Made by a program: the position numbers and the translations under genes | Notes under the pieces: generated by a model | The model's database searches: none | What the model saw: the letters and a program-made list of their open reading frames with translations, nothing else | What the model was told of the DNA's origin: nothing | Shown: piece after piece, positions 3,177 to 12,582 of the stretch | Position numbering within the stretch: the stretch's first letter is position 1 | Layout of the letters: each line of letters begins with the position of its first letter | Assembly: GCA_002397345.1 (NCBI GenBank) | Contig: DHAH01000019.1 | Span: 1,176 to 15,646, forward strand | DNA from: Clostridiales bacterium UBA4959 | GTDB lineage: Bacteria; Bacillota; Clostridia; Oscillospirales; CAG-272 | DNA: 14,471 nucleotides | Reading direction: 5' to 3'

Positions 3177-4460
3177 TTACTCTATATTCCCTGCTAAAAT
3201 ATTTTTAATTTCCCCTCCAAAAAACTTCGAAAACAAGGTGCTGCCTTTTTTATTCATATGTCCCCAGTCAGAATAATTTGATGGGTCGGCGCCTACACCA
3301 GAAGCGTCAATTGTGTTATAATCGTAGAACTCTATGCCATATTTTGCGGCAATGTCTGTTATACGCGCGTTGTTTTTATTCATCTTTATTCGATTTACAC
3401 CGCTATACTCGGGAATTTCGATGAAAATAATTTTTATTCCCAACGCATTGAATTTATCAATAAGTCTTTCAAATGAATTCCACTGTTCCTCATTGTCAGC
3501 GCATGAAACCGTCGATGAATCGCCATTAAAGCCAACGTCCCACGGAATATACCCCTTATAATAATCACTTGTAATATTGCCCGAGCTGTCGCGTTTATAA
3601 CTGTGATTATATGTTGGTAAAATTAAATTATCCGAATAAGCTTCAGTTTCCGACATGTCGTTATTTATTATATCTTCTTTTTCATCTGACTTTAACGCGC
3701 TAAACCATGATCTAACCATATCCGGGATACGATCGCGTAATGATATTATAGATAATTTCGAAAATATCTTGTCCGTAATTGCGTCGATATCCCACCATTT
3801 AATTTTATTTTCCTCTGTCGCGACAGTGTCGTCAATAACCGTTTTATCATCAGAATCCGTTTCTTTTATTTCAGCGTCATCTGCTGTCCGCGCCTCGGTT
3901 TTACACAAACGCCGCATGATATCTATCGGCATATTCGCGGCAGTATCATAATTAATAGTTCTCCATAACCAGTTGTCATCGCACATGAACCAATCGACGC
4001 ACCATATTATTGTATCAGGCATTGGATAACCCGCTTCCAGCACTATATCCCACCAGTCCTCATAATACTTAGGATTTGAACCATTCAAAGAAAAATTGAA
4101 AAAGCTGTACCCTGCGCATTCGTTTTCTACATAAAGCGGATTTACTCCGTGCGCCGCGTGGGATGTCCCCATAAACCATATATCCGCGTTATATACATTT
4201 TTAAATATTTCATAAAATTGACCGTAATAATGATAACAGTCGCGATTGCTGTATTTCTGATAAAACGCCTCCTGCTGTTCAAGCTTAAGGCATTCTAATT
4301 CAAATGTCGCGGCGGATTCTTCTTTTATGGCAAATGCTCTGATATCATCAAGTTCACTTTCAAGGAAGTTGTCCATTGCCACATTCGCTCCTAATATAAT
4401 TACTGCCGAAATAGAAATTACGATCAGCCCTTTTAAAATTAAGTTCAAATAGCACTTCAT
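3177..4460 (-). CDS. Membrane-anchored SGNH/GDSL-like protein, MBOAT partner
   Basis: The 427-residue protein has one N-terminal membrane segment (about 7-29), then an extracytoplasmic domain. The block WFMGTSHAAHGVNP (95-108) places a candidate nucleophile Ser100 followed by His101. FNFSLNGSNP (121-130) supplies a candidate oxyanion Asn, and SDWGHMN (397-403) gives the Asp398/His401 pair of the SGNH DxxH block. This is the arrangement of AlgJ/AlgX- and DltD-like proteins that work with an MBOAT in O-acetylation or acylation of extracellular polymers. A long acidic, low-complexity insertion (about 190-280, rich in Asp, Glu, Ser and Thr) separates the two catalytic blocks. It is the second gene of an operon, 15 bases after the MBOAT stop, with its own AAAGGAA ribosome binding site about six bases before the ATG. 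The exact acceptor polymer is unknown. The class is fairly sure; the enzymatic role is inferred from motif and partner. Confidence 0.78.
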   Translation of the reverse strand: MKCYLNLILKGLIVISISAVIILGANVAMDNFLESELDDIRAFAIKEESAATFELECLKLEQQEAFYQKYSNRDCYHYYGQFYEIFKNVYNADIWFMGTSHAAHGVNPLYVENECAGYSFFNFSLNGSNPKYYEDWWDIVLEAGYPMPDTIIWCVDWFMCDDNWLWRTINYDTAANMPIDIMRRLCKTEARTADDAEIKETDSDDKTVIDDTVATEENKIKWWDIDAITDKIFSKLSIISLRDRIPDMVRSWFSALKSDEKEDIINNDMSETEAYSDNLILPTYNHSYKRDSSGNITSDYYKGYIPWDVGFNGDSSTVSCADNEEQWNSFERLIDKFNALGIKIIFIEIPEYSGVNRIKMNKNNARITDIAAKYGIEFYDYNTIDASGVGADPSNYSDWGHMNKKGSTLFSKFFGGEIKNILAGNIE

Positions 4461-4475
4461 ATTATTCCTTTCTGA

Positions 4476-5906
4476 TCAGAACTGGAAATATATAAACGCG
4501 TTGTTATCATACGCGCCAAATAAAACAATGGACACCAGACACATGATATATGATGTCATTCGCAGCAGTTGTGAATGGTAGAATAACTCTTTTGCGCGCG
4601 ATGATTTTATGCAAAGTTCTATTCCGAACAGAACAAACGGTACGATCCTGCATATATAAATTCGTAATTCCGGAATCAAGTCAAAATTGCCGAGTGTATT
4701 GCCGAATATATTCTTCACAACATAAAAAGCGTCAGAAAAACTCTCGGCGCGGAAAAATATCCACGAAAACGAAATGAGCGAAAAAGTTAAAATAATTGAA
4801 AGCCAAGACGAAAGCAGTTCTAAACGGTCTATGTGCGTCAGCTTTTTAAAAAATTCTCTTACCGGTTTAAGCAGACGCGCCGCGATGATATAAAGTCCGT
4901 TCAGCAATCCCCATGCGGCGTATGTCAGGTTTGCGCCATGCCAGATTCCGCTGATGCCGAATGTCACCAATTGATTAAAACACCATCTGGGTTTACTTAC
5001 GCGGTTCCCGCCTAACGGTATATAAATATAATCCCTGAACCAGGTTGAAAGAGAGATATGCCATCTACGCCAAAATTCCGATACCGAGCCTGAAAAATAC
5101 GGCGTATCGAAATTTGTCATTAAATCAATATCCATTACTTTTGCGCATCCGATCGCGATATCCGAATACCCGGAAAAGTCACAGTATATTTGAACAGTGA
5201 AACATAATACCCCGACAATGAGCCATATACCGCCAAACGAATGGACATTTTTAAAGACAAGGTCAGCTATTAATGATAAATTGTCCGCAACCACTACCTT
5301 TTTGAACATACCCCATAACATCAGACGCCCTCCGATTGTGATATTTCCGGGTATGAGGTAATGTTCTTTTTGCAGTTGCGCCAATAAATTAGGTCCGCGT
5401 TCGATCGGTCCCGCAACGAGCTGCGGAAAGTACATGAGGAATAACGAGAAGTCTATAAAACTGGGCACCGCTTTCTGACGTTTCATATAAACGTCGATTA
5501 AATACCCCATGCTCTGAAATGTATGAAATGAGATGCCAATCGGCAAAACAATTTCCGGAACAACAACAGTTCCAAGCCTTACAGCATGACCGAAAATATT
5601 AATTATATCGCCTAACATCCCGAGATATTTAAAAAACACAAGCAGACCGATATTCAAACACAGCGATATAATAAATACTGCTTTTTTGATATTAGTCCTG
5701 TTCTCATAATGTTCTATTAACCGCGCGCCTGAATAATCGATACAGGTTGTAAAAGCGAGGATTATTATGTATTTCGGTATGAAGGACATATAGAAATAAC
5801 AGCTTGCCGCAAGCAGAAAATATCGTCTGAAACGCACCGGCAGCAGAAAATATATTATAATGACAGCAGGAAAAAATATAATAAAATGAATCGAATTAAA
5901 AAGCAT
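4476..5906 (-). CDS. MBOAT family membrane-bound O-acyltransferase (AlgI/DltB-like)
   Basis: The 476-residue, very hydrophobic protein starts MLFNSIHFIIFFP, the typical AlgI-like N-terminus. It carries the family blocks PIGISFHTFQ (122-131), FPQLVAGPIERG (160-171), DFSGYSDIAIG (243-253), EFWRRWHISLSTWFRDYIYI (277-296, His283) and GIWHGAN (320-326) with the presumed catalytic His323. Length fits AlgI (about 470-520). MBOAT proteins move acyl groups across the membrane onto periplasmic or extracellular acceptors; with a following SGNH partner this is the standard layout for polysaccharide or wall-polymer O-acylation. It is the first gene of the operon, with GGGAG nine bases before the ATG. No alginate or dlt genes (dltA, dltC) are nearby, so a teichoic acid D-alanylation role is unlikely, and a capsule, exopolysaccharide or wall polymer is the better guess. 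Family confident, acceptor unknown. Confidence 0.92.
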   Translation of the reverse strand: MLFNSIHFIIFFPAVIIIYFLLPVRFRRYFLLAASCYFYMSFIPKYIIILAFTTCIDYSGARLIEHYENRTNIKKAVFIISLCLNIGLLVFFKYLGMLGDIINIFGHAVRLGTVVVPEIVLPIGISFHTFQSMGYLIDVYMKRQKAVPSFIDFSLFLMYFPQLVAGPIERGPNLLAQLQKEHYLIPGNITIGGRLMLWGMFKKVVVADNLSLIADLVFKNVHSFGGIWLIVGVLCFTVQIYCDFSGYSDIAIGCAKVMDIDLMTNFDTPYFSGSVSEFWRRWHISLSTWFRDYIYIPLGGNRVSKPRWCFNQLVTFGISGIWHGANLTYAAWGLLNGLYIIAARLLKPVREFFKKLTHIDRLELLSSWLSIILTFSLISFSWIFFRAESFSDAFYVVKNIFGNTLGNFDLIPELRIYICRIVPFVLFGIELCIKSSRAKELFYHSQLLRMTSYIMCLVSIVLFGAYDNNAFIYFQF

Positions 5907-5934
5907 TTTTTACGCTCCCGTATACATAATACTA

Positions 5935-5975
5935 AAATTCGATAAACATAAAGATTAAAGCTTATAATCGAATTT
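5935..5975. repeat. 9-bp inverted repeat flanking the MBOAT transcription start
   Basis: AAATTCGAT (5935-5943) and ATCGAATTT (5967-5975) are perfect inverted copies 23 bases apart. The second arm abuts the -10 box and the first lies just downstream of the predicted start site, so the pair could be operator half-sites for a repressor or a stem in the leader RNA. No regulator for it is recognisable in the window. Confidence 0.45.
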
Positions 5976-5988
5976 AAGTATAAAACAA
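5961..5988 (-). promoter_or_regulatory. Candidate sigma-A promoter for the MBOAT-SGNH operon
   Basis: On the minus strand TTGTTT (complement of 5983-5988) is followed by a 16-base spacer and TATAAG (complement of 5961-5966). Transcription would begin near 5955, leaving about 48 bases before the MBOAT ATG. The -10 box matches the consensus at five of six positions; the -35 box is weak. Confidence 0.4.
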
Positions 5989-6011
5989 GCAGTTCCGATT
6001 AACGTCCTATT

Positions 6012-6043
6012 AAAAATGTCCGCATTATTAATGCGAACATTTT
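6012..6043 (-). terminator. Rho-independent terminator after the surface-protein gene
   Basis: A hairpin of 7 + 5 base pairs with one mismatch (arms 6013-6025 and 6031-6043, loop TATTA) lies 21 bases past the minus-strand stop at 6065. On the minus strand the last arm runs into TTTTT (complement of 6012-6016). The stem is AT-rich, so strength is uncertain. Confidence 0.6.
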
Positions 6044-6064
6044 GTTTGGTGTATTGATTTACAG

Positions 6065-6922
6065 TTATTTATTTTTTTTAGAAATGTATGCGGCGCCAAT
6101 CGAAATTATGATACCCGAGATCGCCATAGACAGCACGTCGAAGGTCTGGGGAGCAGCAGTGATGACAGTTTCGGTTTTTGCATCAGTATCGGTTGCTGTA
6201 ACCGCCGTTATCGGTTTGGGATCAGCTTCGGTTTTCTCCGCAGCCGTCGGTTCGGGGGCGGCTTCGGTTTTTTCTGCCGCGGCGTTGTCGAAGAATACGG
6301 CGGAGATAACCGCGTTGGACGGTGAACCGAGATTTATTGCATCGTAATATGAATACTCGAAAACCACCTTGCCTGTGATAGTCGCGGTCAAGTATGTACC
6401 ATGTTCGAAAGCGGTCAGATCATAGGTGCCGAGAGTATTTCCGGCGCTATCATACGCGGTTACCTCCACGCAGCGTCCGTCATTGCCCCAGTCGCAGGAA
6501 TAAATCGATACGGTAGTTTCTGTGCTTCCGACGTCTATGGTCAGATTAAGCCCGGTACCGTTGTATATACATGGGATAACGCGTTGTGTCTTTGTTTTAT
6601 CAGTCCAGAGGGCATCTTCATAAGCGTTGGCGCTGTTGACGCCCGAAGTATCGGAGTCGTCTCCCAACCACCACTGATGATACGACGGCTTATTGCCGAA
6701 CAAATCGCTGTAAGAGAATTCGCTGACATAGGCTGGCAGATTATTGACACAGCTTTCAGCGTTCTTGGCGAACATGAAATATCCGTCGGAACCGTATTTG
6801 CCCACCCAGTTACCTTTTGTGGCGGTATCAGCGGTTATACTGATACTGCCCGCGGCAAATACATTCAAGCTGAGTATTAAAAAAATTACCGGAACGATAG
6901 AAAAGAATTTAAAGGTTTTCAT
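6065..6922 (-). CDS. Secreted surface protein: carbohydrate-binding-like beta domain, T/E/P linker and sortase-like tail
   Basis: The 285-residue protein begins with a signal peptide (about 1-23, cut near VFA/AG). Residues about 25-212 form one domain that opens with GNWVGKYGSDGYFM (37-50) and closes with NAVISAVFFD (203-212). I recognise this pattern from small jelly-roll/CBM-like domains attached to secreted bacterial carbohydrate-active proteins, whose typical wording is GNWxGxYGxDGY ... VSGLFF, but I cannot name the Pfam family. Cysteines 58, 118, 143 and 151 could pair. A 12-residue unit, AAEKTEAAPEPT then AAEKTEADPKPI (215-238), makes a linker. It is followed by APQTFD (257-262), a hydrophobic segment (263-280) and SKKNK, resembling a variant cell-wall sorting signal. 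It is the second gene after the solute-binding protein (49-base gap, AAGGAG eight bases before the ATG). Predicted role: surface glycan binding that feeds the lipoprotein. Confidence 0.7.
   Translation of the reverse strand: MKTFKFFSIVPVIFLILSLNVFAAGSISITADTATKGNWVGKYGSDGYFMFAKNAESCVNNLPAYVSEFSYSDLFGNKPSYHQWWLGDDSDTSGVNSANAYEDALWTDKTKTQRVIPCIYNGTGLNLTIDVGSTETTVSIYSCDWGNDGRCVEVTAYDSAGNTLGTYDLTAFEHGTYLTATITGKVVFEYSYYDAINLGSPSNAVISAVFFDNAAAEKTEAAPEPTAAEKTEADPKPITAVTATDTDAKTETVITAAPQTFDVLSMAISGIIISIGAAYISKKNK
6225..6296. repeat. Two-copy 36-bp tandem repeat inside the surface-protein gene
   Basis: The GCTTCGGTTTT... unit starting at 6225 recurs at 6261 with a few differences. The period of 36 bases corresponds to the repeated 12-residue linker unit AAEKTEAAPEPT / AAEKTEADPKPI. 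This is the kind of short in-frame repeat that varies in number between strains. Confidence 0.6.
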
Positions 6923-6971
6923 TTTCGGACTCCTTGTAATATATTTATTTTTAATTTATGTAAGCTCATTT

Positions 6972-8477
6972 TCAGTCTTTTATAAAACTAAAACTTCCCA
7001 TCAGTTTTTCAAGTGCTTTATTGCTTAAACGTTCAATCTTTGCGTAATTTGACGCTACTTTTCCAGATAAATTTTTCATTTGTCCGATTATGAAACTCGA
7101 TATACCGCCCACATTGGATATGTAACCCAAATCCACTTTACGTCCCGCCAATATAATATCAAGCATCTCGCCGGATTCATCGTCGCGCATCGCCTTAGAT
7201 TTAAGCGCGATATCATAATATGTTGGTTTAAGATATATAGCGGATTCATAGGAAAGCGCTTCAAACACGATTTCGGAACGTTCGGTATCCGGAGTACACC
7301 GGGGTATGGTTAACGCATCCGAAGCCCACGCGTTTATATATGAGGTATATGTCTGCTGAGCTTCATTATATTTGGGGAAAGGCAGCACACCGAAATCCGT
7401 ATCCATAGCGCGCAATCTTGTCACGCATTGCAGTACCTCGCCATAAAACAAAACCTGCCCGGCTTCAAACATCGCTTGGGTACCTTTCCAGCCTATGCTC
7501 GGAAAATCATCATTATTAAAGGTAATTGTCTCATTATTCATGATCTTGTCAGCTTTTTCGATTATATCAACGATTTGTTCGTTGATGCCGGTCAAAACCA
7601 AACTGTCGTTGCTATCTTTTGTAATTATAGAGCCTCCCATACCATAGAATAATCCGCTGTATGAGTTACCCGAAGTCGCGAATCCATAATTATCAAGTTG
7701 GTTATATATAGAGTCGCCGTTCGAGTCGCCGCTGTTATCTTTTATTAAGGAATAGAATTTATCCGCCGTCCAGCTTCCGTCCCGTACAAGCTGGTACAGA
7801 TCTTCCAAGTGGTAATTTTCCGCGGCAACCTTATTGAACATCAATATCCAAGTTCCGTCGCTGGAGATCACGGTCATGTCTCCTACCGCAAGGAAATTAC
7901 GGTTGTAAACAGATGTATCTTCGAAAATACTCTGTGTGTAATATGGCGCGTCCATATTTATATACGTACTGTCATTTAAAGCGTAAAGATAATTGTTTTG
8001 CGCTGAGGTAAACGATGTAGCCAGTGTCAGCATGGCAAGATCGCATGAATTATCGCCTGCATTTATTGATTTGCCGAGGGTGTTGACAAAGTTTCCATCC
8101 GCCACGGTGTATGGTTTTATTATTATGTTCATCCATTCCTCAACAGTGGCATTCCTATTGAAAAGCGCGTCGTTTAACGGCTCGCTGTTCAATTCCTCTG
8201 TAAACACGTCGGTGCTTCCCCACCACCCGCTCGCATCGTCCGCGCGCTCCATAATAACGAAAGTATATCCGTCGTAATTGCGTTCAGGAAGTTTTGGACA
8301 TACGAGTTTGGTATTGTCTCCGTCATCTGTTATAGTTTCTGTTGTATCGCCAAGTGTGTTTTCGATCTGCGTCTGCGCCTTTTTTTCGCCGCATGATACT
8401 GTCGAAAGAGTGAATAAAAGGGAGAATAACAGTAATATACAGCGCCTGAACCGAACTGCTTTCGTATTAAACATCAT
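6972..8477 (-). CDS. Extracellular solute-binding lipoprotein (ABC sugar-uptake type), copy 1
   Basis: The 501-residue protein has an Arg-rich then hydrophobic leader (9-28) ending in TVSC, with Cys29 as the predicted lipidated residue; Thr at -3 makes the lipobox weaker than usual. After an acidic T/E/D linker (about 34-57) comes a large solute-binding domain resembling family 1 (sugar) binding proteins: YDGYTFVIMER, EELNSEPLNDALFNRN (94-109), MFNKVAAE, a calcium-loop-like DSNGDS (251-256) and FGVLPFPKYNEAQ. The paralogue at 10872-12356 shares all these blocks. Two adjacent ATGs (8477, 8474) are possible starts; GAGG sits three bases before the first and six before the second, so 8474 may be the real one. 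It leads an operon with the surface protein. No permease or ATPase gene accompanies it. The ligand is not predictable from sequence; oligosaccharide is a guess from family. Confidence 0.85.
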   Translation of the reverse strand: MMFNTKAVRFRRCILLLFSLLFTLSTVSCGEKKAQTQIENTLGDTTETITDDGDNTKLVCPKLPERNYDGYTFVIMERADDASGWWGSTDVFTEELNSEPLNDALFNRNATVEEWMNIIIKPYTVADGNFVNTLGKSINAGDNSCDLAMLTLATSFTSAQNNYLYALNDSTYINMDAPYYTQSIFEDTSVYNRNFLAVGDMTVISSDGTWILMFNKVAAENYHLEDLYQLVRDGSWTADKFYSLIKDNSGDSNGDSIYNQLDNYGFATSGNSYSGLFYGMGGSIITKDSNDSLVLTGINEQIVDIIEKADKIMNNETITFNNDDFPSIGWKGTQAMFEAGQVLFYGEVLQCVTRLRAMDTDFGVLPFPKYNEAQQTYTSYINAWASDALTIPRCTPDTERSEIVFEALSYESAIYLKPTYYDIALKSKAMRDDESGEMLDIILAGRKVDLGYISNVGGISSFIIGQMKNLSGKVASNYAKIERLSNKALEKLMGSFSFIKD

Positions 8478-8844
8478 TCACCTCATACATTCTGAAATAT
8501 GATACACAAGTACAAAAAACCCGTTCATAATATTGTACAATCTACGCCTATCAATTATTTACTTTTTAGTCATTATATCATTGATTTTTTATTGATACAA
8601 TTTTGTTTTCATCTTAATATTATATGGTTTCGGTGCTATTTTTGTATATTTGCGATATATATAAGGCGGTTATCTCAATATTTTCATTAATTACGGCAGA
8701 TGTCTGAATGGTGAGCTGCCACTTCATGGTTCATTATATTGTTTCGTCCACACTAAAATATAATAAAGTTATCAAATCAATATAGACATCTCGGGCTTTC
8801 AATGATATAAGATTATTATAAACCTACATAGGAGAGGCGTTGAT
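8478..8844. promoter_or_regulatory. Divergent regulatory region between binding protein 1 and the AraC-UroD gene
   Basis: This 367-base AT-rich stretch holds no convincing gene. Besides the minus-strand promoter it contains a perfect 10-bp palindrome, ATTGTACAAT (8532-8541), in the leader of binding protein 1. It also holds an 8-bp inverted pair AGATGTCT (8698-8705) / AGACATCT (8784-8791) bracketing a TATAAT at 8759-8764 on the plus strand. That TATAAT is a possible -10 for the AraC-UroD gene, but no good -35 box lies 16-18 bases upstream, which would fit an activator-dependent promoter. AGGAGAGG (8830-8837) is the ribosome binding site for the ATG at 8845. The divergent layout suggests that the AraC-type protein controls the operon. 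Confidence 0.5.
8572..8600 (-). promoter_or_regulatory. Promoter of the solute-binding protein 1 operon
   Basis: On the minus strand TTGTAT (complement of 8595-8600), a 17-base spacer and a perfect TATAAT (complement of 8572-8577) form a good sigma-A promoter. The start would be near 8565, giving an approximately 88-base leader before the ATG at 8477. Confidence 0.65.
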
Positions 8845-10776
8845 ATGCAAAGACACGAATGTATTCCAAAATTATTGGAAATCCCGGAGTTGAAATCCAT
8901 ACCTGTGTTTTTGAATAAAGCATTTTGTTGGGGGTTTGAAGATCAAAATTTTCATTATCATGAATTTATCGAAATCTGCTATGTGGCTTCGGGGGGCGGG
9001 TATCATCAGATACGCGATAAAGTTCTTGAATGCAAAAAAGGTGATATATACATTATAAATCGCGGTGTTGCGCATGCGTTCTTTATGTCTGACGATTTTA
9101 ATTATAAAGAACTTCTGGTTAAAAACCTTATATTTTTGCCGCAGTTTATTTTTTCTTCAGAATGTCCGGATTTTCAGCTAATCGACATATACAAACACCT
9201 CTCCGTCGAAATACTTAATGACGACACTTCAGTAATGAAACTTAGTCTCAACGCCGGGCAATTTGATGATTTGGATCGTCTGTATTCGGATATAAACGAC
9301 GAATACAGAAATATGCAGATCGGTTCATTAAATATAATAAACGCCGAGATAATAGTTTTTCTCACCAAAATGGTACGCTATATTCAACAGGATTCAAACA
9401 ATGTTATTCCTTATAAATTTACAAACTGCAGTCTTTCTCTTGTTGAAAACACCTGTAAATTTATCGACACAAATTTTAACGATCCGAATTTAACAATCGC
9501 CGCCGCGGCGAAACATGTATTCACCGGGAAAAGTTATCTCAGCCGGATATTTAAGAAATATACGGGAAAATACTTTTCTGATTATCTTCATGAATACCGA
9601 ATGAACGAAGCGTGCAAGCTGATCCGCACGGGAAAAATGACAAACGAGCAGATCTGCTACGCCTGCGGTTTTCGTGACCTTCCGACATTTTATAAAAACT
9701 TCCGCAAATATACCGGAATCACACCGAAAGAATATTACAAGCGGAATATTCAGAATAATTATAAAAAAGAGGTTTCTATTATGCCAACGACACACGATGA
9801 AATGACTTCTGCCGAGCGTGTCAAAAATGCTATTCTCGGTCTGCCCGTCGACCGGACGCCAATATATGGCTGGGTCAGCGCCAATTTGAGCGGTCCTATC
9901 GCTTCATCCTATGGGTATGTATCAGCATTTGAAGATAAATACCGTTTTGACGCGGCACATATTTTTGGCGGTCCCGGGCCATTCAACAACACTGTCATAA
10001 ATAACATACGCGCTTCATGTGATGAAATGACGCCCGATATGCTGCTGGACGCTGACATTTTCACAGATCCAGATCGCATATCGGATTATCAAAATATTCG
10101 CGGCAATATAGACTTTCATAAAGAGCGCGGACGTTTTTGTTATGTCCAGACACCTGGCTTTTTTGAAAATTTCAACGGTATATTTAAAATAGAAGATCAG
10201 TTATTATATCTTGCGGAATATCCCGACGAACTGGGTGAATTATACAGACGCCAAGCCGAATGGACGAAAAAATTCGCGGATCATTGTCTGGAATGCGGAG
10301 CCGATATGATCCACATTTCCGATGACTGGGGCGCGCAAAACAACCTCATGTTTTCACCCTCGACATGGAAAAAGCTGATAAAACCAAATCTTATAACGGT
10401 CGTCGACCACGTGCATTCCAGAGGCGCGCTTGCCAGTCTGCATTCGGACGGCTGTATCGCGCCGGTAGTAGACGAACTGGCGGATATAGGTATAAACTGC
10501 ATACATCCATGGCAGGAAAGCGCAAATATGCCGTATTCGCTGTGGCTGGATAATTACAGCGACCGCTTCGCTATTATGGGCGGAATTTGCGTACAGACGA
10601 CTTTGGGATTCGGCAATTACAGGCATCTGGAAAACGAGATACGCCGCGTATTCTCTCTGTTGCGGGGAAAACGCTGGATATGCTGCACCACGCATTTCGT
10701 GCAAAACCATTGTTCGCTTGTTGAACTTGAGTTCGCGTTTGATCTCATTTACAAACTTGCGCGTGAAAATTATTAA
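8845..10776 (+). CDS. AraC-family regulator fused in frame to a UroD/MtaA-like domain
   Basis: One 643-residue frame contains two complete proteins. Residues 1-about 190 hold an AraC-type cupin sensor (HYHEFIEICYV, 37-47; GDIYIINRGVAHAF, 66-79). Residues about 200-300 hold the two helix-turn-helix motifs (LTIAAAAKHVFTGKSYLSRIF; MTNEQICYACGFRDLPTFYK), closing with the standard TGITPKEYY. Only 13 linker residues later, at Met313, starts a uroporphyrinogen-decarboxylase-like barrel: SAERVKNAILGLPVDRTPI, ISDDWGAQNNLMFSP (491-505), LHSDG with candidate metal ligand His533, and a final GKRWICCTTH. This branch resembles MtaA/UroD-like proteins, often methyltransferases or of unknown substrate, not haem biosynthesis HemE. 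The UroD part alone is 331 residues, a full-length family member, and has its own ribosome binding site, so two products are possible. The first ATG has AGGAGAGG seven bases upstream. The domain calls are firm; whether the fusion is real is discussed in the findings. Confidence 0.85.
   Translation: MQRHECIPKLLEIPELKSIPVFLNKAFCWGFEDQNFHYHEFIEICYVASGGGYHQIRDKVLECKKGDIYIINRGVAHAFFMSDDFNYKELLVKNLIFLPQFIFSSECPDFQLIDIYKHLSVEILNDDTSVMKLSLNAGQFDDLDRLYSDINDEYRNMQIGSLNIINAEIIVFLTKMVRYIQQDSNNVIPYKFTNCSLSLVENTCKFIDTNFNDPNLTIAAAAKHVFTGKSYLSRIFKKYTGKYFSDYLHEYRMNEACKLIRTGKMTNEQICYACGFRDLPTFYKNFRKYTGITPKEYYKRNIQNNYKKEVSIMPTTHDEMTSAERVKNAILGLPVDRTPIYGWVSANLSGPIASSYGYVSAFEDKYRFDAAHIFGGPGPFNNTVINNIRASCDEMTPDMLLDADIFTDPDRISDYQNIRGNIDFHKERGRFCYVQTPGFFENFNGIFKIEDQLLYLAEYPDELGELYRRQAEWTKKFADHCLECGADMIHISDDWGAQNNLMFSPSTWKKLIKPNLITVVDHVHSRGALASLHSDGCIAPVVDELADIGINCIHPWQESANMPYSLWLDNYSDRFAIMGGICVQTTLGFGNYRHLENEIRRVFSLLRGKRWICCTTHFVQNHCSLVELEFAFDLIYKLARENY
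9763..9783 (+). promoter_or_regulatory. Internal ribosome binding site and ATG for the UroD-like domain
   Basis: AAAAAAGAGG (9763-9772) lies eight bases before the ATG at 9781, which is residue 313 of the fused frame and exactly the start expected of a stand-alone UroD-like protein. It implies an ancestral two-gene operon, or translation of a separate 331-residue product from within the fused gene. Confidence 0.6.
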
Positions 10777-10871: not shown

Positions 10872-12356
10872 TTATGGGTTCTCACCATAAGCCTTTAAAG
10901 TTTTCTCCATAGCTTTTACCGCCGCTTTCTCAATTTTACCGTAAGCGGAGACAAAGTCGGAGGAGCCTTTTTCGGTGAGGTTGCCGGGCAGGGAAAAAAC
11001 TCCGCCCCAATCAAAGATATTGCCAAGGTCATATATCCTCGACGCGAATATAAGGTCGAGCATATCCGACGACTGCTCGTCACGCGAATATTTAGTTTTG
11101 AGCGCGATGTCGTAATAAGCCGGGGTGAGCGTGTAATACGATTCGGCTGAAAGCGCCTCGATGATAATTCCCGTGCGGTCGAGATCGATGACGGTTTTGG
11201 GTATCATTATGCTTGATGCGCAGCCGCAGCTAACCGGGCAGTGGTAGTTTTTCTGAGCCTCATCATATTTTGGCACGGGTAAAATGCCGAAGTCCGTGTC
11301 CATGCTGCGGAACAGGGTCACGCGATTCATGCCCGCGAAGTTGAACAGCACTCTGCCGTCCGAGAATATTTTATCCATGCAGCCTGACCATACGTCAGAG
11401 AATTTGCCTGTATAGTTGGAAACATAAAAGCATATGTCGCCTTTGCGTGAGTTAATTTTGATAGCTTTATCAAAAGCGGCGATAAATTCCGGTGTGTTTA
11501 TCGATATGTAGGGCATGTCGTCGCTGTCCTTGGAGATTACACGGCAACCCGCACCCGCGCACAGGGCAAAGGTATTGAAACCCTCGCCCTCGATGCCCCA
11601 CTGGTCGTTTTCGTTCAATTTGCCGTCGCCGTTGAGATCGCTGGAAGCAAACCGCACGCACTCGTAAAGCTTGTCAATCGTCCACACGCCGTTATTGACA
11701 GCCTGATACAGATCGCCGAGCTGCAATTCATTCGCAAGCTGTTTATTGAACAATAACACCCATGTGGCGTCGTTGTCCATGACCATAAGATCGCCGGTCG
11801 TGGCGAAAAGTTTATGATCAATGGAAAGCGAACTGTTGGCGTTCTGGTCGTACCACGGTTTTTCAAGGTCCATATATGTTATTGTTTTCAAGTCCATAAC
11901 ATATCCTTTTGTCGAGTAGTTTCCCAGCGTACCCAACCCGATCGCAAACATGTCAAAATCATCGGAATTTGAGACGACGCTCTTCTGCCCGGCGCCTGTA
12001 TAGTCGGAAAATTGCCCGATCTCTTTTATCGAGAAGTTGTACTGTTCTCCGATTTTGCTGTTGCGGTTGAAAACGGCGTCGTTTATGGGGTCGGCGTTCA
12101 GCTCTTCCGCGTATATGTCTTTGGTTTTCCAATGCACGTCCCAATTACCTTTGGTAAGCACGCGGAACTCATACCCTTCAAAGTCTTTTTTAGGTAAATT
12201 GGGCAGCAGCTTTTCTGTTTCGGTTGTTTGCGTTTCAACAGTTTCATCAATAGCGGGTTCTTTGGAGGTGGCTTTATTTTCCGCGCAGGATGCGAGGGCG
12301 GATGCCGTGATAAGTAAAACAAGCAGCATTGAAGCGATTTTGGATAAATGTTTCAT
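10872..12356 (-). CDS. Extracellular solute-binding lipoprotein (ABC sugar-uptake type), copy 2
   Basis: The 494-residue protein has a signal peptide ending in ALASC, with Cys24 as the lipidated residue in a good lipobox. A T/E-rich linker follows, then a solute-binding domain with FEGYEFRVL, EELNADPINDAVFNRN (84-99), LLFNKQLA, a calcium-loop-like DLNGDG (240-245), FGILPVPKYDEAQ and YYDIALKTKYSRDEQ. These blocks line up one for one with the copy at 6972-8477, so the two are diverged paralogues. The open frame reaches a GTG at 12368, but the ATG at 12356 is chosen because GAGGAAAA lies just before it (GAGG seven bases upstream) and the signal peptide then starts normally (MKHLSKIAS). It stands alone as a transcription unit, closed by the terminator at 10788-10817. 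It has no permease partner here, so it probably shares a transporter encoded elsewhere or serves as a sensor. Ligand unknown. Confidence 0.87.
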   Translation of the reverse strand: MKHLSKIASMLLVLLITASALASCAENKATSKEPAIDETVETQTTETEKLLPNLPKKDFEGYEFRVLTKGNWDVHWKTKDIYAEELNADPINDAVFNRNSKIGEQYNFSIKEIGQFSDYTGAGQKSVVSNSDDFDMFAIGLGTLGNYSTKGYVMDLKTITYMDLEKPWYDQNANSSLSIDHKLFATTGDLMVMDNDATWVLLFNKQLANELQLGDLYQAVNNGVWTIDKLYECVRFASSDLNGDGKLNENDQWGIEGEGFNTFALCAGAGCRVISKDSDDMPYISINTPEFIAAFDKAIKINSRKGDICFYVSNYTGKFSDVWSGCMDKIFSDGRVLFNFAGMNRVTLFRSMDTDFGILPVPKYDEAQKNYHCPVSCGCASSIMIPKTVIDLDRTGIIIEALSAESYYTLTPAYYDIALKTKYSRDEQSSDMLDLIFASRIYDLGNIFDWGGVFSLPGNLTEKGSSDFVSAYGKIEKAAVKAMEKTLKAYGENP

Positions 12357-12582
12357 GGTTTTCCTCACTTAATTATAATATTTTTTAATAATGCCGTGAT
12401 TTATGCCGCTATTGATAACAAGAGGAATATTAATTAATACAGCTTTAAAATAATCACCTTCCCTTTAAATCAATGGATATATCAAGAAATAATCCGGGGC
12501 TTTTTTATTACGTTTTGCTTATAAAACCACTCCTTATCTTAGTTATCTTGTTAAAGTAATACAAATATTTAAGTTGATAATT

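Follow-up and report, generated by a model that had tools for sequence, protein, structure and literature searches.

The stretch of DNA studied here (14,471 nucleotides, hereafter the window) carries a gene in which an AraC-type transcription regulator is joined in frame to a whole UroD-like enzyme domain, an architecture that recurs in public data. The fusion is real; we consider with moderate confidence that it arose by loss of a stop codon, that its enzyme part is probably a methyltransferase I, and that it provides both a tethered regulator-enzyme and a free enzyme translated from an internal start. The gene, delimited by its ORF, Pfam matches, and homologues, occupies positions 8845-10776 of the plus strand, on which all its features lie, and is a single open frame of 643 aa preceded by the Shine-Dalgarno (SD) sequence AGGAGAGG (8830-8837; GAGG 7 nt before the ATG at 8845). 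It encodes a cupin and an AraC helix-turn-helix (HTH) part, joined by 12 linker residues to a complete domain of the URO-D fold. The N-terminal ligand domain is of the cupin type found in AraC/XylS regulators: Pfam places the AraC-type cupin at residues 29-83 (8929-9093), the cupin has an HxH(x)3-4E motif, and a RhaR-like fold spans residues 9-187. The AraC DNA-binding domain follows (HTH_18, residues 222-300, 9508-9744), its tandem HTH scoring 78.5 and 55.8 bits with HTH_18/HTH_AraC, both above the cut-off. These domains place the gene among the AraC/XylS regulators, and its product is predicted to bind DNA and control transcription. The linker (residues 301-312, 9745-9780), modelled with low confidence, contains an internal SD, AAGAGG (9767-9772), 8 nt 5' of the ATG at 9781; the whole signal (9767-9783) ends at Met 313, the native first Met of the UroD/methyltransferase-I-like domain (9781-10776), which could be translated separately (331 aa). 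This domain matches the URO-D profile (PF01208) and has the UROD barrel fold.

The initial annotation had proposed the in-frame fusion, called its architecture non-standard, and advised a check for a missed stop codon between the two parts. The fusion is confirmed by the single frame, and no stop codon had been missed; none of the best 25 of 32 NCBIfam matches of the protein reaches its cut-off. Because nine further full-length fusions exist in public data, 45-84% identical, a missed stop or a chimeric assembly is ruled out.

These fusions come from a search of 5.8 billion proteins that gave 45 matches, the window's protein included. Nine are the further full-length AraC-UroD proteins (P0002-P0007 and P0009-P0011); P0008 is cut, and P0012 (860 aa) combines AraC, B12-binding, and URO-D parts. 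The search also returned seven UroD proteins without AraC (P0013-P0019), seven AraC proteins with a B12-binding domain (P0020-P0026), and 19 matches that have mainly the HTH in common. P0040 (423 aa, AraC HTH and PF09370) is one more regulator with an additional domain attached. The AraC-UroD fusion is rare. UroD of the window's clade (E <= 1e-90) is present in 34 of 395 genomes of the same family and fused in two of the 34, the window's own genome and G044. From a collection of species genomes, 195 confirmed stretches were reduced to 80 loci, nearly all MAG records of Clostridia, Oscillospiraceae, Lachnospiraceae, or Bacillota (one isolate, Anaerocolumna sedimenticola, L116, whose unfused araC and uroD genes are divergent), and one of these (L039, the G044 record) has the fusion. 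Among 391 genomes of the class, 17 matched P0010, with a full-length fusion in its own genome only; P0012 was likewise found only in its own genome among 279 of the phylum.

Beside the AraC-UroD fusions stands a twin family of AraC-corrinoid fusions, absent from the initial annotation. Profiles made from the fusions revealed it in 10 of the 80 loci (L057, L059, L074, L079, L081, L086, L090, L091, L105, and L109), together with unfused AraC kin above 120 bits in nine further loci (L087, L096, L097, L099, L101, L103, L104, L106, and L116) and weaker AraC matches of 60-82 bits in L068, L092, and L117. Whole-genome searches added the AraC-corrinoid fusions of L118, L119, L120, L123, L124, L140, and L143; among the searches for further fusions, that with P0020 against 391 class genomes gave one, and that in the families of G1076 and G574 (16 and 20 genomes) yielded one new place. 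A second three-part protein, in L152 (6689-9379, minus strand; 897 aa), consists of HTH, B12-binding_2, B12-binding, and a URO-D domain of another subfamily than the window's. Neither an AraC-UroD nor an AraC-corrinoid fusion is described in the titles and abstract openings among the matches listed by our literature search.

In the AraC tree, the UroD-fused rows form two supported clades (P0001-P0007 and P0009-P0011; two changes, gains or losses), nested in a clade whose other rows are corrinoid-fused or, in a few cases, free; in the UroD tree, the fused label requires four changes. Four architectures are thus found in one AraC clade, with the regulator joined to UroD, to a corrinoid protein, to a corrinoid protein and a window-type UroD, or to a corrinoid protein and another UroD, which implies more than one event that joined a regulator to methyl-transfer parts. 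One row labelled as free in the AraC tree is a second AraC relative in G044 (L132:1473-2345, minus strand; G044:C274), nearest to a UroD-fused clade, with a stop within the HTH and further stops after it.

The fusion would have arisen from two neighbouring genes that shared a frame, once the stop codon separating them was lost. Corrinoid relatives display both states of such a site: where L074 has CAA, the closely related L096 carries a TAA in frame, L074 and L079 read through, and all three have an SD and an ATG after this site. The L096 stretch (4701-8622) comprises two UroD genes of the clade followed by AraC and corrinoid genes, the last three in the same frame with single stop codons between them. 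The initial annotation had recommended a comparison with relatives in which the parts are separate genes. In G001, of the same genus as the window, a UroD gene without the AraC part comes immediately after counterparts of the window's MBOAT gene (70%) and of that gene's partner (60%). The Met of this UroD aligns with Met313 and is preceded at 8 nt by AAAGGGGG, counted as a miss by our SD rule (see below). Since six fused rows form a supported clade (SH-aLRT 99) within which this UroD is placed, the AraC part was most likely lost in G001.

A stop codon can be lost in one step, as L096 and L074 illustrate, and the enzyme might accordingly be a mere passenger on AraC, with no functional link between the two and only the free enzyme of consequence. 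The rarity of the fusion (two of the 34 family genomes with clade UroD, out of 395 searched) and the lack of an AraC part in G001 agree with this. We nevertheless judge it quite improbable, given that each of the four architectures in the AraC clade draws on the same type of enzyme system, that the fusion persists down to 45% identity, and that the fused corrinoid copy retains its cofactor motif where a second corrinoid gene is present.

The reading of a fusion that yields two products draws on the junctions. Two AraC-UroD fusions were read as DNA, and both have an internal SD and ATG: the window and L009/L039, whose junction reads AGGAG, 8 nt, ATG. We scored as a start any Met codon with an SD core (AGGAGG, AGGAG, GGAGG, GAGG, GGAG, or AGGA) at a spacing of 4-11. 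In a first set of 17 fused ORFs (2 UroD, 15 corrinoid), the junction had a start in 12 of 17 cases, compared with 16 of the 238 Met codons elsewhere inside these ORFs. With L140 and L143, which have one, and L152, which lacks it at the corrinoid junction and has it at the UroD junction (AAGGA and ATG), the count rose to 15 of 21 junctions, whereas of the remaining internal Met codons in these ORFs 18 of 294 have a start (Fisher 2e-12, which ignores the relatedness of the rows and therefore overstates the case). AGGAG or GAGG lies 8-9 nt 5' of the ATG in 14 of the 15 start-bearing junctions; the window's SD has a GAGG core and is weaker than that of most junctions, which have AGGAG. Of 89 UroD rows whose start region could be read, 66 have an SD by the same rule; this reference set includes double-fetched loci and the fused L039. 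The junction word is mostly read as Lys-Gly-Glu or Arg-Gly-Glu, and the linker peptides vary while the SD word stays. Because L086 and L140 read the word in another phase (Lys-Glu-x), the DNA word rather than the peptide is what has been kept. The gene has, in sum, the mark of genes with long and short forms, an SD and in-frame start at a domain border that is kept in relatives. The retained ribosome-binding site and start, missed in the initial annotation, suggest two products.

If the full-length fusion were instead the sole product, a bifunctional regulator-enzyme, the internal SD would be a useless inherited relic. The conservation of the AraC-UroD fusion down to 45% identity fits such a protein, as does P0011, which has Leu instead of Met at the junction. 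We consider it unlikely: starts are found at the junctions (15 of 21) at about the rate of real UroD genes (66 of 89), and the DNA word is kept over varying linker peptides, in two cases in the other codon phase. The corrinoid junctions that lack an internal start (L090, L091, L109, L120, L124, and L152) bear on this question in both directions. Their mere existence favours a single product, yet loss of the start goes with a second gene copy in four of the six: in L090, L091, L120, and L124 the fusion is followed immediately by another corrinoid gene, which L109 and L152 lack. No such gene follows any of the 10 fusions with an internal start and readable flanks (L057, L059, L079, L081, L086, L105, L118, L119, L123, and L140); L074 and L143, where the sequence ends too soon, were left out. 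For this difference, Fisher p is 0.008, a value that ignores the kinship of rows. Four tree-independent pairs, L152 not among them, give three as predicted, none opposite, and one without difference, a sample far too small for the sign test (p 0.25). The prediction, fixed beforehand, failed in the only new case that followed: the corrinoid junction of L152 lacks a start, and no free corrinoid gene lies close by; this again speaks for the full-length product alone.

In the corrinoid sister fusions, then, an internal start and a separate gene copy partly replace one another. Each second copy resembles start-bearing fused copies from other lineages (three compared) more than the fused copy next to it (81 versus 74% identity in L124, 81 versus 71% in L090, 79 versus 71% in L091, and 83 versus 78% in L120), as if the fused corrinoid copy had been released from the enzyme's work where a second copy exists. 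In its assembly, the second copy of L124 is divided between two frames and may therefore be broken. The fused copies beside them nevertheless retain the cobalamin motif GDxHDIG.

The UroD domain of the window is probably a corrinoid-dependent methyltransferase I acting on an O-methyl compound, as judged from sequence and gene context. It differs from the UROD-superfamily corrinoid methyltransferases (MtaA, CmuA, MtvB/OdmB/VdmB, and CdmB) in being fused to a regulator and in having His-x-Asp where they have His-x-Cys. Its scores lie far below the cut-offs of the MtaA model NF040654 (32.2 bits versus 400) and of TIGR01463 (26.5 versus 235.4), and the hemE model does not appear among the 25 of 32 NCBIfam matches listed. 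In MtaA and CmuA, the His-x-Cys...Cys pattern provides the zinc ligands. A weak phmmer alignment (E 0.0095) sets His533-Ser-Asp535 (10441-10449) against the His-Ile-Cys of MtaA. This replacement of Cys by Asp, and the absence of any match at E 0.01 between the UroD-clade profile and solved structures, are what one would expect had the domain lost catalysis and become a ligand-binding sensor only. We find this hard to credit, for H-S-D-G, HxSDDWG, and CT...VQ are identical across an alignment of 12 stand-alone and 2 fused rows and nearly the same in the fused proteins (the His of CTTHFVQ is Gln in P0009-P0011). The available text of one study describes O-methyltransferases of the superfamily in which Asp/Glu or non-ligand residues take the place of one Cys or of both (PMC10418091), and that of another reports related enzymes that use no zinc (PMC13222342).

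A catalytic role as methyltransferase I is also consistent with the genomic setting. The window's own genome contains one corrinoid gene and one gene for a reductive activator (RACo), the partners of an O-demethylase-type system, both on contigs other than that of the fused gene. We clustered the neighbours in 86 loci (the 80, the window, L118, L119, L120, L123, and L124), with cluster representatives only matched to Pfam. MtaA-like URO-D proteins form a cluster present in 13 loci, of which 8 also have an AraC-corrinoid fusion; the corresponding numbers are 11 and 9 for RACo, and 8 and 6 for DUF2284. The link to cobalamin or one-carbon chemistry raised in the initial annotation is thus supported by the AraC-corrinoid sister fusions and by the RACo and MtaA-like genes of their operons. 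The stand-alone UroD genes of the clade often adjoin kin of the window's AraC regulator.

Catabolic neighbours suggest O-methyl sugars as possible substrates. L-rhamnose isomerase and rhamnulose-phosphate aldolase genes lie near the AraC-corrinoid operon of L123, a tagaturonate reductase and a galactarate-dehydratase-like protein (the latter below the cut-off) are encoded in L124, and L105 has a GH78; L057 gives a weak rhamnosidase match. The rhamnose and uronate catabolism genes (L123:14171-15999 and L124:11230-14185) adjoin the AraC-corrinoid methyltransferase operons. A Pfam tally over 117 ORFs flanking clade UroD genes (39 of the 80 loci), made to look for a signal of a shared substrate, gave 133 families, none dominant (URO-D in 6, B12-binding in 4, AraC HTH in 4, and GH95 in 2), and the sugar-ether idea therefore rests on single loci. 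A family of 385 aa with a Cys-containing start (L118:12269-13423, with homologues in 8 loci) occurs near clade UroD and AraC-corrinoid genes and matches neither Pfam nor NCBIfam.

We envisage the following mechanism. The enzyme's own ribosome-binding site and ATG, retained inside the fused frame, would most likely give two products. The tethered AraC-enzyme would sit on DNA at a promoter, where its cupin and enzyme domains may meet the same substrate and so set transcription. Ribosomes entering at the internal site would make free enzyme for bulk catalysis, predicted to pass the methyl group of the O-methyl compound to the corrinoid protein, and the state of the enzyme could feed back on transcription. 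More broadly, we propose, tentatively and as somewhat doubtful, a class of one-component regulators in which a working piece of a corrinoid methyltransferase system, be it the UroD enzyme, the B12 protein, or both, is tethered to AraC, transcription follows the methylation or substrate state of that enzyme, and an internal start supplies the free enzyme. If so, one gene would set both the sensor and the thing sensed.

Compared with AraC/XylS one-component regulators that have a cupin sensor (RhaR, RhaS, and AraC), the window protein adds a whole enzyme-fold domain after the HTH. CmuA unites methyltransferase I and corrinoid protein in one chain, as stated in the available part of PMC13222342. 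Like it, P0012 and the L152 protein hold parts of one corrinoid system in one chain. Unlike the AraC fusions, CmuA has to our knowledge no regulator part. Long and short forms made from an internal in-frame start are described for CheA, CcmM, and InfB in the portion consulted of PMC11005335. As in these genes, the long form of the window gene has an extra domain and the predicted short form would carry the core function; unlike in them, that domain regulates transcription and the predicted short form would be an enzyme. PutA, BirA, and NadR are trigger enzymes, or bifunctional regulator-enzymes, that combine an enzyme with transcription control in one chain. The window protein resembles them in this respect, and we know of no such protein with AraC or a corrinoid system. 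Regulator-enzymes and internal starts are each already known; a combination of the two that involves AraC and a corrinoid system was not found in the titles and abstract openings searched. According to the available text of PMC13222342, how the acetogen Acetobacterium dehalogenans regulates its 26 methyltransferase systems is for the most part unexplored. Regulators that carry an enzyme or a B12 protein are candidates for controlling such systems, and the AraC fusions allow a direct test of whether the methyl-corrinoid state is a transcription signal. If the internal start is translated, one fused gene would give both regulator and enzyme.

The initial annotation had also considered an enzyme that controls its own sugar locus. 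The window does not support this: the fused gene lies alone between two genes for solute-binding-type lipoproteins, which have no permease gene beside them. Nor does a corrinoid or RACo gene adjoin the fused gene, which counts against our main reading. Upstream of it, a search for AraC operator repeats gave short two-copy repeats only. Scans for promoter-like and terminator-like signals stayed near the level of shuffled sequence. In viral contigs, none of 29 pattern matches was confirmed. We saw no second UroD of the window's clade in the own genome (other matches have 22-30% identity), though absences there are weak because the genome is 74% complete. The flanking lipoproteins (6972-8477 and 10872-12368, minus strand) are paralogues, 36% identical, without a match in Pfam or NCBIfam, and have homologues in L042, L048, L064, L082, and L115. 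At 3177-5906 (minus strand), an MBOAT O-acyltransferase is encoded with a 427-aa partner, and this pair adjoins a stand-alone UroD in L038 too (70% and 60% identical). The corrinoid gene of the own genome lies directly 3' of an AraC regulator with a PocR domain (L126:5645-7679; G000:C172), and AraC-corrinoid neighbours of similar size are found in L129, L130, and L131.
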